DNA from: Erythrobacter sp. EC-HK427
GTDB lineage: Bacteria; Pseudomonadota; Alphaproteobacteria; Sphingomonadales; Sphingomonadaceae
Reading direction: 5' to 3'
DNA length: 64,000 nt
Assembly (NCBI RefSeq): GCF_902498745.1
Contig: NZ_LR701479.1
Coordinates: 996,292-1,060,291, forward strand
Shown: piece by piece, positions 17,544 through 21,085 of the stretch
Numbering within the stretch: the stretch's first letter is position 1
How the letters are laid out: each line of letters starts with the position of its first letter
Notes under the pieces: model-generated
What the model was told of the DNA's origin: nothing
Seen by the model: the letters and a program-made list of their open reading frames with translations, nothing else
Databases searched by the model: none
Translations under genes and position numbers: made by a program

Positions 17544-17551
<8 letters not shown>
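16790..17551 (-). CDS. sufD: Fe-S cluster assembly protein SufD
   Basis: 253-residue SufD of the SufBCD scaffold. The beta-helix core is shorter than the roughly 420 residues of E. coli SufD, as is common in sphingomonads. The C-terminal SufBD region shows EIFADDVQCAHGAAIGQLDDMARYYMASRGI, including the conserved His of the SufB-SufD interface. It overlaps sufC by 8 bases and the downstream lipoprotein gene by 4. Confidence 0.92.
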
Positions 17552-18304
<753 letters not shown>

Positions 18305-18305
<1 letters not shown>

Positions 18306-18850
18306 TAGTCTTTCCGTGTTGGGCGGGGCGGGCCATTGCCGTCGCGGTCGTAGCGGGGCTTGCTCTGGCGCGGGTTTTCGGCGTTGTGCTTGCGGCGCGC
18401 TTCGGCCTTGTCGGCGATGCGCAAGCGCATTCCGGCGGTGATGCGCGCGAGCACTTCATCCATGTTTTCGAGGATATCGGCGGCCTTTAGATGCATCACG
18501 CGGATGCCGACGCTTTCGAGGCTCTTGTCGCGGCGGCGATTGAGCGCCTCGTCATCGCCTTCCTCGTCGATCACGATAGCCATGCCGAGATTGTGGCAAT
18601 TGAAATCGACAATCGCGCTGCCGACTACGGCGAAGCGCTTGAAGGTGTAGCGGCCCAGATCGGCCTTGGCGAACCGCTCGGCCAGCGCCTTGTGCGCAGG
18701 CGAAGCGTGCCGCTTCCGGTCGCGCGCCTGATCGTGCAGCACATCGAGCCGCTTGTCGGAAATCTCCCAACCACGCCCACGCTTTTTGAGAGCGGGGGCT
18801 TCGGCGGTGGCAGCCTCGGGGTTGAGGGCGAGGGTTTTGCGTTCGGTCAT
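18305..18850 (-). CDS. DUF559/Vsr-like hypothetical protein in the suf operon
   Basis: 181 residues. The middle (IVDFNCHNLGMAIVIDEEGDDEALNRRRDKSLESVGIRVM, about 80-119) has the layout of the DUF559 very-short-patch-repair-like nuclease fold: VDF with Asp82, an acidic strand (Asp95, Glu96), then RRDxxL and GIxV. The N- and C-terminal tails are long, basic and low-complexity. Translationally overlapped on both sides (ATGA with the upstream gene, TAATG with sufC). A structural or DNA-repair role in this operon is not known. Confidence 0.6.
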
Positions 18851-19095
18851 TGAGACCTCCGGAAAGCGATGGCCAATGAGGCCGCATCATCAATGAAGCC
18901 TTCGTCAGCAGGATTGTGCGGCGTCGCGTCGGAAGAGAAATAGCGCAGACACGCATCGGCATTCCCAACCGCGCGCAGACCATCCGGCATAGACATGTCA
19001 AACCACCAGACATCTGACTGTGACCACTGCGAGAACTCACCAATTCCGCCGGATTGTTCAGCAAGCCCGATAAGACCTTTGATAGCTTTGCTCAT
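18847..19095 (-). CDS. Small hypothetical protein in the suf operon
   Basis: 82 residues, soluble; [23 protein letters not shown] then SDVWWFDMSMPDGLRAVG. No family recognised. Its ATG overlaps the preceding stop (ATGA, 19092-19095), and its own stop overlaps the next gene. If the DUF559 cassette upstream is an insertion, this gene would originally have overlapped sufB directly. Confidence 0.6.
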   Translation of the reverse strand: MSKAIKGLIGLAEQSGGIGEFSQWSQSDVWWFDMSMPDGLRAVGNADACLRYFSSDATPHNPADEGFIDDAASLAIAFRRSQ

Positions 19096-19122
19096 CCAAC
19101 CGACCCTTCAAGCGAAATCGCC
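19092..19122. repeat. Direct repeat copying the sufB tail, distal copy
   Basis: Matches 19589-19619 at 25 of 31 positions, including 15 identical bases (19108-19122 = 19605-19619, TCAAGCGAAATCGCC). Both copies encode AISLEGSVG plus stop on the minus strand, and all six differences are synonymous. The copies are exactly 497 bases apart and bound the DUF559 cassette. Confidence 0.85.
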
Positions 19123-19592
19123 CCAAAAAGCCCCTCCCCTTCAGGGGAGGGGTTGGGGTGGGGGCTGTGGCGAGAAACGCGGCCAGCGGCGGCCAGCCGG
19201 ATCACGTCCAAAACCCCCTCAGCGTTGTTCATCACTTCAAGATTGGTCACCCGCACCACCATAAATCCAAACTGCGCCAATTCATCGTCTCGCAGGCGGT
19301 CCTTGCCCGCATCGTGCGTATCGCCATCGACTTCGACGATCAGCGCCCGCGCCGGACACATGAAATCAGCGATGAACGGGCCGATTACTTCCTGACGGCG
19401 GAACTTTAGGCCATCAAGCTGGCTGTTCGACAGGTTGCGCCAAAGCCGCATTTCCGGCTCGGTCGGATTGCGTCGCATGTCTCGTGCGCGCTTCCTGAGC
19501 GTTTCGAGCTGTTCGACTGACAGCCCCCACCCCAAACCCCTCCCCTGAAGGGGAGGGGCCTTCTTGGCCCAGCCCTTGTCTTGCACAATCAC
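19092..19592 (-). CDS. DUF559 endonuclease-domain protein carried by a repeat-bounded cassette
   Basis: 166 residues in the longest reading. The core ([61 protein letters not shown]) is a full DUF559 domain with the Vsr-like acidic residues Asp76, Glu87 and Asp89. Both ends are translated repeat: [14 protein letters not shown] at the N-side and [11 protein letters not shown] at the C-side. The last nine residues AISLEGSVG are identical to those of SufB. The GTG start overlaps the sufB stop (GTGA); ATG 19478 is an alternative start. Probable mobile cargo; activity untested. Confidence 0.8.
19129..19167. repeat. Inverted repeat, left copy, around DUF559 core
   Basis: Contains a palindrome of CCCCTCCCC and GGGGAGGGG arms followed by TTGGGGTGGGGGCTG. 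It is a near-perfect inverted copy of 19521-19560, with about one gap and one mismatch. The two copies face each other across the DUF559 core. Confidence 0.9.
19521..19560. repeat. Inverted repeat, right copy, around DUF559 core
   Basis: CAGCCCCCACCCC followed by a CCCCTCCCC/GGGGAGGGG palindrome; inverted partner of 19129-19167. Read on the minus strand it is translated as the proline/glycine-rich N-terminal stretch of the DUF559 protein. Confidence 0.9.
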
Positions 19593-21085
19593 CCCACACT
19601 CCCCTCAAGCGAAATCGCCAGCAGCTTCTGCGCTTCCACCGCAAACTCCATCGGCAGCTCTTTCAGTACTTCCTTGGCAAAGCCGTTCACGATCAGCGCC
19701 ACGGCCTCTTCCTGCGGCAGGCCGCGTTGCATCGCGTAGAACAGCTGGTCGTCGGAAATCTTGGAGGTCGTCGCCTCGTGCTCGATCTGCGCAGTGGGGT
19801 TCTTCACTTCGATATAGGGCACGGTATGCGCGCCGCATTCGCTGCCGAGCAGCAGCGAATCGCACTGGGTGAAGTTGCGCACATTGTCCGCATTGGCGCC
19901 CACGCGCACCAGGCCGCGATAGGTGTTGTTGCTCTTGCCCGCCGAAATCCCCTTGGAGATGATTGTCGAGCGGCTGCCCTTCCCGTTGTGAACCATCTTG
20001 GTTCCCGTGTCGGCCTGCTGATGGTTATTCGTAACCGCAACCGAGTAAAACTCGCCGACGCTGTCTTCGCCATTGAGCACGCAGGACGGGTACTTCCACG
20101 TCACCGCAGAGCCGGTTTCCACCTGTGTCCAGCTGATTTTGCTGCGATCACCCTGGCACAGCCCGCGCTTGGTGACGAAATTGTAGATCCCGCCCAGCCC
20201 TTCGGCATTGCCCGGATACCAGTTCTGCACGGTGGAATATTTGATCTCCGCATCTTCCATCGCCACCAGTTCCACCACCGCGGCGTGGAGCTGGTTTTCA
20301 TCGCGCATCGGCGCGGTGCAGCCTTCGAGGTAGGAGACGTAAGACCCCTTCTCGGCAATGATCAGCGTGCGTTCGAATTGCCCCGTATTCTCCGCATTGA
20401 TGCGGAAATAGGTGGAAAGCTCCATCGGGCAGCGCACGCCTTCGGGGATGTAGACAAAGGTGCCGTCCGAGAAGACCGCGCAGTTCAACGTCGCGAAGAA
20501 ATTGTCGCGCATCGGCACGACCTTGCCGAGCCACTTTTTCACCAGCTCCGGATATTCGCGGATCGCCTCGCTGATGGAGAGGAAGATGACGCCCGCCTTC
20601 TTCAATTCCTCGCGGAAGGTGGTGGCGACGCTGACGCTGTCGAACACCGCATCCACCGCCACCTTGCGCGCGCCCTCGACGCCCGCGAGCACTTCCTGCT
20701 CGGCAATCGGAATGCCCAGCTTGTCGTAAATCGCCTTGATCTCGGGATCGAGTTCATCGAGCGATTCGAGCTTTGGCTTCTTCTTCGGTTCGGCGAAGTA
20801 ATAGGCGTCCTGATAATCGATTGCGGGATAGCCGACCTTGGCCCAATCGGGCTCTTCCATGGTCTGCCACAGGCGGAAGGCTTTCAGCCGCCAGTCGAGC
20901 ATCCATTCGGGCTCGTTCTTCTTCGCCGAGATGAAGCGCACCGTATCTTCGGTGAGGCCCTTCTCGGCAAATTCGGTTTCGATGTCGGACGACCAGCCGT
21001 GCTCGTAATCGGCAGCTTTCGCCGCCGCGGCCTTGGCTTCCGCGTCCATTTCTGAACGGTCTTTGAGATCGAGCTGATCGGTCAT
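19589..21085 (-). CDS. sufB: Fe-S cluster assembly protein SufB
   Basis: 498-residue scaffold component on which the cluster forms, with SufC and SufD. Recognised by [42 protein letters not shown], the C-terminal [17 protein letters not shown] and the end [17 protein letters not shown]. Length is usual for the family. Its ATG overlaps the Rrf2 regulator stop. The final nine codons are repeated, with synonymous changes, 497 bases downstream at the end of the DUF559 gene. Confidence 0.97.

Follow-up and report, generated by a model that had tools for sequence, protein, structure and literature searches.

The closest described counterparts of the locus presented here are the RAYT-REP systems (REPtrons, REPINs). 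According to the available text of a 2013 survey, which treats GTAG and CGTC REPs, inverted palindromic repeats frame the gene in these systems, gene-less inverted dimers occur elsewhere and repeat types match gene subtypes (PMC3733652); in each of these respects the DUF559 genes described below are alike. However, the enzyme of the RAYT systems is a HUH tyrosine transposase, whereas here it is a DUF559 protein, and the palindromes here are C/G-rich with a TTGGGG-like inner stretch instead of being GTAG-tagged, mobilisation being a candidate property. Since no RAYT was found among the Pfam matches, we do not regard the locus as a RAYT system but as one organised like it. CGTC-tagged REPs are likewise inserted just after sufB in relatives and accompanied by copies of the sufB tail, but their sequence is different and they do not frame the DUF559 genes seen here. 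In the same part of the survey, this type is reported to have no dedicated transposase (PMC3733652).

Regarding the enzyme, the Caulobacter protein VsrA (CCNA_02930) is also a DUF559 protein and has an effect on DNA damage in vivo, being needed for the SOS response of a methyltransferase mutant. However, its proposed role is that of an endonuclease in mismatch repair, and the word stem 'palindrom' is absent from the available text of the paper (PMC12907096). The EDxHD homing endonucleases differ by extra DNA-binding regions and by serving introns or phages, as stated in the accessible part of PMC3943268. For phages, nuclease genes at the boundaries of exchanged DNA have been reported (PMC10448857, available part). 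Within the open-licence literature, no link between DUF559 (PF04480) and REP-like repeats was found in titles or abstract openings, and the available text of PMC12306157 contains neither 'endonuclease' nor 'DUF'.

The window analysed here is a stretch of 64,000 nucleotides from Erythrobacter sp. EC-HK427. On its minus strand, an operon runs in the order sufB, DUF559 gene (166 aa), 82-aa gene, divergent DUF559 gene (181 aa) and sufC, with the following features:

19589..21085, minus strand: sufB (SUFBD_core, E=6e-79)
19589..19619, minus strand: first sufB tail, i.e. sufB's own end, AGT form, overlapping the DUF559 start (GTGA)
19525..19567: inverted-repeat arm on the 5' side of the 166-aa DUF559 gene, with a palindrome at 19537-19558
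19092..19592, minus strand: DUF559 gene, 166 aa, palindrome-framed copy (PF04480, E=8.3e-31)
19122..19164: inverted-repeat arm on the 3' side of the 166-aa DUF559 gene, with a palindrome at 19131-19152
19092..19122, minus strand: second sufB tail copy, TCG form, forming the end of the DUF559 frame and the upstream region of the 82-aa gene (ATGA)
18847..19095, minus strand: 82-aa gene without Pfam match, present in 2 of 298 family genomes
18305..18850, minus strand: resident divergent DUF559 gene, 181 aa (E=1.4e-12), the first 78 nt of which resemble another genus
17544..18305, minus strand: open reading frame with visible ATPase motifs, which we take to be sufC from its translated sequence

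A sequence-only reading of the region had described a DUF559 gene of 166 aa between inverted repeats, and this discrete, repeat-bounded unit was recovered; the second DUF559 gene of the operon was absent from that reading. The 166-aa protein belongs to DUF559 with 106.5 bits against a curated cut-off of 20.6, and its Pfam matches comprise DUF559 and a weak MTES_1575 match, nothing else. Neither the list of open reading frames nor Pfam revealed a recombinase in the unit, as had been stated. The inverted repeats measure 43 nt with 86% complementarity and arms 360 nt apart, so that the earlier description as near-perfect 39-bp repeats is fair for part of the arm; each arm contains an exact palindrome-like block of 22 nt, and the arms encode parts of the N- and C-terminus of the protein. 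The direct repeats of 31 nt (81% identity, 497 nt from start to start) were confirmed, along with their coding for the same 13-residue peptide with six differences, all synonymous, and the GTGA and ATGA stop/start overlaps are as claimed. The last nine codons of the DUF559 frame are made up by the second sufB tail. Our preferred explanation, held with modest confidence, is that the suf unit consists of a DUF559 nuclease gene with its own REP-like palindromes in a REPtron-like arrangement, that it is old, and that one copy was domesticated while one was regained by recombination.

A frame of inverted REP-like palindromes is common around DUF559 genes in many Pseudomonadota. For each locus, the best inverted repeat between both flanks was scored, with windows shifted by 700 to 2000 nt as controls and a threshold of at least 16. 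This score was reached at 23 of 28 DUF559 loci of the genus, 30 of 35 of the named relatives and 17 of 29 of a phylum sample, compared to 0/111, 0/276 and 1/116 shifted windows, respectively (1/503 overall). The phylum sample comprises the loci at the best-scoring places in 61 of 249 matching genomes, excluding our own locus; when the flanks of each locus were shuffled 60 times, no shuffle scored above 15, and the same 17 of the 29 loci exceeded their shuffled maximum. A clear inverted repeat is missing at the other 12. The named set was collected by protein search (55 loci) and is biased, as PHPNPSPE, one of the search peptides, is encoded by the palindrome; 18 short-match loci (L136-L153) were left out of the flank test, and 35 of the 37 long-match loci were tested, L109 not being entered and L112 lying too near to a contig end. 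At the five named loci below the threshold (L100-L103, L105) the palindromes are partly inside the match, and wider windows gave scores of 29, 16, 22, 22 and 10. A DUF559 match was present in all 40 genus genomes searched. Other repeat-bounded DUF559 genes, proposed as a check by the sequence-only reading, do exist with repeats of the same kind. The repeat sequences vary by DUF559 subfamily, and many share a plan of a C/G-rich palindrome followed by a TTGGGG-like stretch toward the gene; the paired arms are subtype-specific in sequence and reach into the DUF559 reading frame.

The numbers of palindromes partly follow the matching DUF559 subtype, with exceptions. All 4 genus genomes with a subtype-A gene (at least 52% identity) contain palindrome A (CCCCTCCYCTTCAGRGGAGGGG), as do 6 of the 36 without, G013 with its split subtype-A gene being counted among the latter (Mann-Whitney P=1.9e-5, and 1.0e-3 after removal of the two own flanks, kinship ignored). 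For palindrome B the counts are 15/17 genomes with and 9/23 without a subtype-B gene (P=9.6e-4, and 0.043 without own flanks, kinship ignored), and the crossed comparisons between palindromes and subtypes gave P=0.49 and 0.12. The genome studied here carries 21 B sites although a close subtype-B gene is missing, and B sites without such a gene occur in several further genomes. This argues against strict pairing, unless there has been gene loss or activity across subtypes.

The same palindromes are also dispersed as gene-less inverted dimers in this genome, as in REPtrons: two are of the exact type (L078 and L081, 77 and 71 nt between starts) and four of close types (L085, L086, L088 and L090, 77-122 nt). 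At L078 (positions 1456-2054; C2, about 1397499) the window-type dimer lies between a dead copy of a 13-codon gene head and the live start of the gene, presumably encoding methylmalonyl-CoA epimerase. The two head copies show 7 differences in 39 nt with one amino-acid change, and this arrangement may reflect an event similar to the import into suf discussed below.

When a profile of 21 copies was compared with solved structures, the best agreement was with the DUF559 protein 3hrl ('Endonuclease-Like Protein', E=1.2e-35), followed by PvuRts1I (E=4e-5) and by PDB entry 3r3p ('Mobile intron protein', E=4e-4), which we take to be I-Bth0305I. The latter is a distant sequence match, in which the likeness to the EDxHD homing endonucleases consists. 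According to the preferred explanation, the PD-(D/E)XK/Vsr-like DUF559 protein would stand in the place of the HUH transposase and would nick or cut at or near the palindromes, and subsequent repair or recombination would spread and maintain them. Membership in an anti-phage defence system was considered and set aside, as no strong PADLOC match to a defence protein was obtained, the best being a partial one to DpdF (E=0.0066).

The strongest alternative is that DUF559 proteins are Vsr-like mismatch endonucleases and that the palindromes are mRNA-end or terminator hairpins around small mobile genes, with no functional tie between the two. It can draw on VsrA, which causes SOS in Caulobacter cells lacking the cytosine methyltransferase and for which mismatch repair was proposed in the available text (PMC12907096). 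One of our copies gave a weak match to the Vsr profile (E=0.021), and other kinds of REP-type hairpin are found after sufB as well. However, the arms are paired, subtype-specific in sequence and reach into the reading frame, the like of which occurs in the single shifted window mentioned above, and the correlation of palindrome numbers with DUF559 subtype speaks against the missing tie. We consider this alternative rather unlikely.

The preferred explanation further states that the palindrome-framed unit at sufB is an old lineage of the Sphingomonadales. In its own genus the unit is exceptional: among 38 sufB ends with a readable tail it occurs within 500 nt in our genome alone, so that the proposed comparison with close relatives yielded 37 sites without it. 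These are followed by the resident DUF559 gene directly, by a small gene beginning on the sufB stop codon or by other REP-like inserts (L042, L059, L061, L074). In relatives (L038-L074), the stretch from sufB to the resident DUF559 gene appears as a hypervariable slot, with small genes on the sufB stop that are different in most genomes; several of them resemble short secreted proteins.

Outside the genus, a sufB end lies just upstream at 13 of the 37 long-match named loci, in 12 cases with the unit directly after the sufB tail and in one (L102) with a small gene in between. Among the labels of the records with a suf-located unit are Sphingomonas, Sphingopyxis, Sphingobium and Novosphingobium. 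A tree of 64 proteins places 15 suf-located copies, three resident genes and L104, L112 and L121 on one side of a branch with support 98/93, a suf-like motif being nearby in the case of L112. Since the suf-located copies from several genera form one clade, the suf location is old. Of the 15 suf cassettes, 11 share an identical left 22-nt palindrome and 13 an identical right one, which is truncated by N in a further case; the nuclease core, by comparison, shows 65% nucleotide and 64% amino-acid identity and 44% at degenerate third positions. As a side observation, the suf DUF559 protein of L114, labelled Microvirga sp. SRT01, has as its sister (100/98) the protein of a Sphingomonas record, and the label looks doubtful. 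The sequence-only reading had named an old resident gene with ordinary divergence and without repeats as the finding that would speak against a cassette. Its first part was indeed found, as the same gene lies at sufB in several genera of Sphingomonadales, whereas the second was not, as the repeats are present there; together this points to an old resident that kept its repeats.

The divergent 181-aa DUF559 gene is present throughout the genus. None of the seven resident suf DUF559 genes has a flanking score of at least 16 (shifted windows 1/28). On the protein level, the resident gene lies on a long branch of the 64-protein tree and lacks residues that are invariant in the other aligned copies (E47, W51, Q67, E87 and H93). 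Its N-terminus APALKKRGRGWEIS aligns without gaps with a stretch of 14 residues that is encoded by the left palindrome in L100. Because active-site-like residues and palindromes were lost and the palindrome-encoded N-terminus was kept, the gene looks, from these alignments, like a domesticated descendant of the unit, in which catalysis was probably lost. Within the preferred explanation, one copy in the family would have been domesticated to become this 181-aa gene.

Homologous recombination with the suf region of another genus would then have given the genome studied here a palindrome-framed copy again. The 82-aa gene has its second occurrence in G153, a genome of another genus, where the order of DUF559 unit, tail copy, 82-aa gene, resident DUF559 gene and sufC matches the window; there the contig of the unit starts inside the unit, and sufB reaches its contig end before the tail. 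The left palindrome of G153 (L098:1-90) reads as long C and G runs at the contig start, perhaps a hairpin assembly error. Over its first 78 nt, the resident gene shows 86% and 82% identity with G071 and G153, both of genus g33, and 60-74% with 16 other genomes, 11 of them of the own genus. In later parts of the gene, identity reaches 85-92% for own-genus genomes and 68-87% for g33, the latter falling to about 50% in the final part. Over the final 150 nt of sufB, the 11 own-genus genomes show 86-92% identity, G071 shows 80% and one other-genus genome 90%. This mosaic suggests a foreign segment between the end of sufB and the start of the resident gene. With a genus-like first tail, a second tail similar to those at the sufB ends of other lineages and a resident start that matches another genus, the interval from sufB to the resident gene was probably imported by recombination from that genus. 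Homologous recombination, named by the sequence-only reading as one possible route, thus became the better account of the unit in this genome. The second tail of G153 has the AGC form, versus TCG in the window, so that the source of the window's TCG there is not explained by the import route.

The duplicated tail may be understood from its position. The last 30 nt of sufB would double as ribosome-binding site of the overlapping next gene, and at most loci an open frame begins on the sufB stop codon. Scoring of 143 sufB ends (L075 was dropped, having no tail) gave a serine codon AGY at 100 of 113 ends without a REP pattern in the next 45 nt and at 15 of 30 with one (P=1.6e-5); the REP pattern used here over-calls, e.g. 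at L045 and L047. AGY tails have a stronger predicted pairing with the anti-Shine-Dalgarno sequence (median -15.6 vs -9.2 kcal/mol). Complete second copies number 13, the window included; in 8 of them the last nine codons contain an amino-acid change or an indel, in 5 they contain neither (window, L074, L158, L100, L103), and the purine block GARGGG is kept in 12, the exception being L239. The tail copy is best read as being kept as a ribosome-binding site for the next gene. No tail copy was found where sufC directly follows the cassette (L105, L109, L114, L115); at L106, L107, L111 and L120 a gene other than sufC follows, likewise with no tail copy, which counts against a role in translation.

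Tail copies also occur downstream of other REP-type inserts (L042, L059, cut by N, L074, L158, L161 with two, and L239), in the named cassettes L099-L103 and in G153. L161 (G258) has three sufB tails with two different CGTC-type REP inserts between them, and at L219, a non-REP locus, a tail-like stretch matches at 23/30 positions. In the sequence-only reading, the cassette looked like an element of the kind that inserts at the 3' ends of genes, with a sufB tail of its own as attachment site. This was not supported, since unrelated REP-type inserts are flanked by tail copies as well, no recombinase is encoded and the copy is missing where sufC follows; integration by a site-specific recombinase at the end of sufB was rejected on the latter two grounds.

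A plain insertion with a long target-site duplication of about 30 nt, whose copies then diverged, is improbable. It would account for the tail copies that directly adjoin both ends of the insert, in this genome as well as at several further inserts. However, only one copy ends sufB, and a simulation put the probability that six random substitutions would all be synonymous at about 2e-4; the differences in the window include a serine switch between AGT and TCG. In addition, no identical pair occurs among the duplicated tails inspected, and the copy length varies from about 30 to about 54 nt among the named cassettes. The earlier remark that the pair is unlike a plain target duplication was thereby upheld, and a recent insertion of this kind was discarded. 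The order within the window is unusual, with AGT in the first and TCG in the second tail, whereas no other complete pair has TCN in its second copy. The second tail differs by 2 nt from those at the sufB ends of L059, L099 and L156; the first matches L159 exactly and differs from many others by a single nucleotide. According to the preferred explanation, the copies would differ because they derive from different suf alleles and not from one decayed target duplication, and the tail would be present twice because an insert between overlapping genes persists best with a copy on both sides. That the 30-nt tail is itself an exchange site, at which genes and repeats accrete as tail-headed cassettes, is very improbable, for although L161 has its three tails split by two different inserts and different small genes begin precisely at the tail in the majority of genus genomes, a search of this genome for further copies of the tail, at up to 3 mismatches, gave sufB as the sole hit, the interval has no recombinase gene and the ribosome-binding role would account for the conservation of the tail.

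Beyond the suf operon, we tentatively propose, at somewhat less than an even chance, that throughout the Pseudomonadota a large, as yet unnamed class of C/G-rich REP-like palindromes has its dedicated partners in the DUF559 proteins. The two together would form a second, independent arrangement of the RAYT-REPIN type, built on a Vsr/homing-type nuclease, with members that can be domesticated in place. The suf operon would then hold a before-and-after pair at one place, an intact palindrome-framed copy and its degenerate, palindrome-less descendant. REP and REPIN repeats are common in bacteria, and a partner is recognised for the RAYT-associated ones only. If true, the DUF559 partnership would provide a candidate mover for another class of repeats, as well as a function testable in vitro for a widespread protein family whose function is unsettled.
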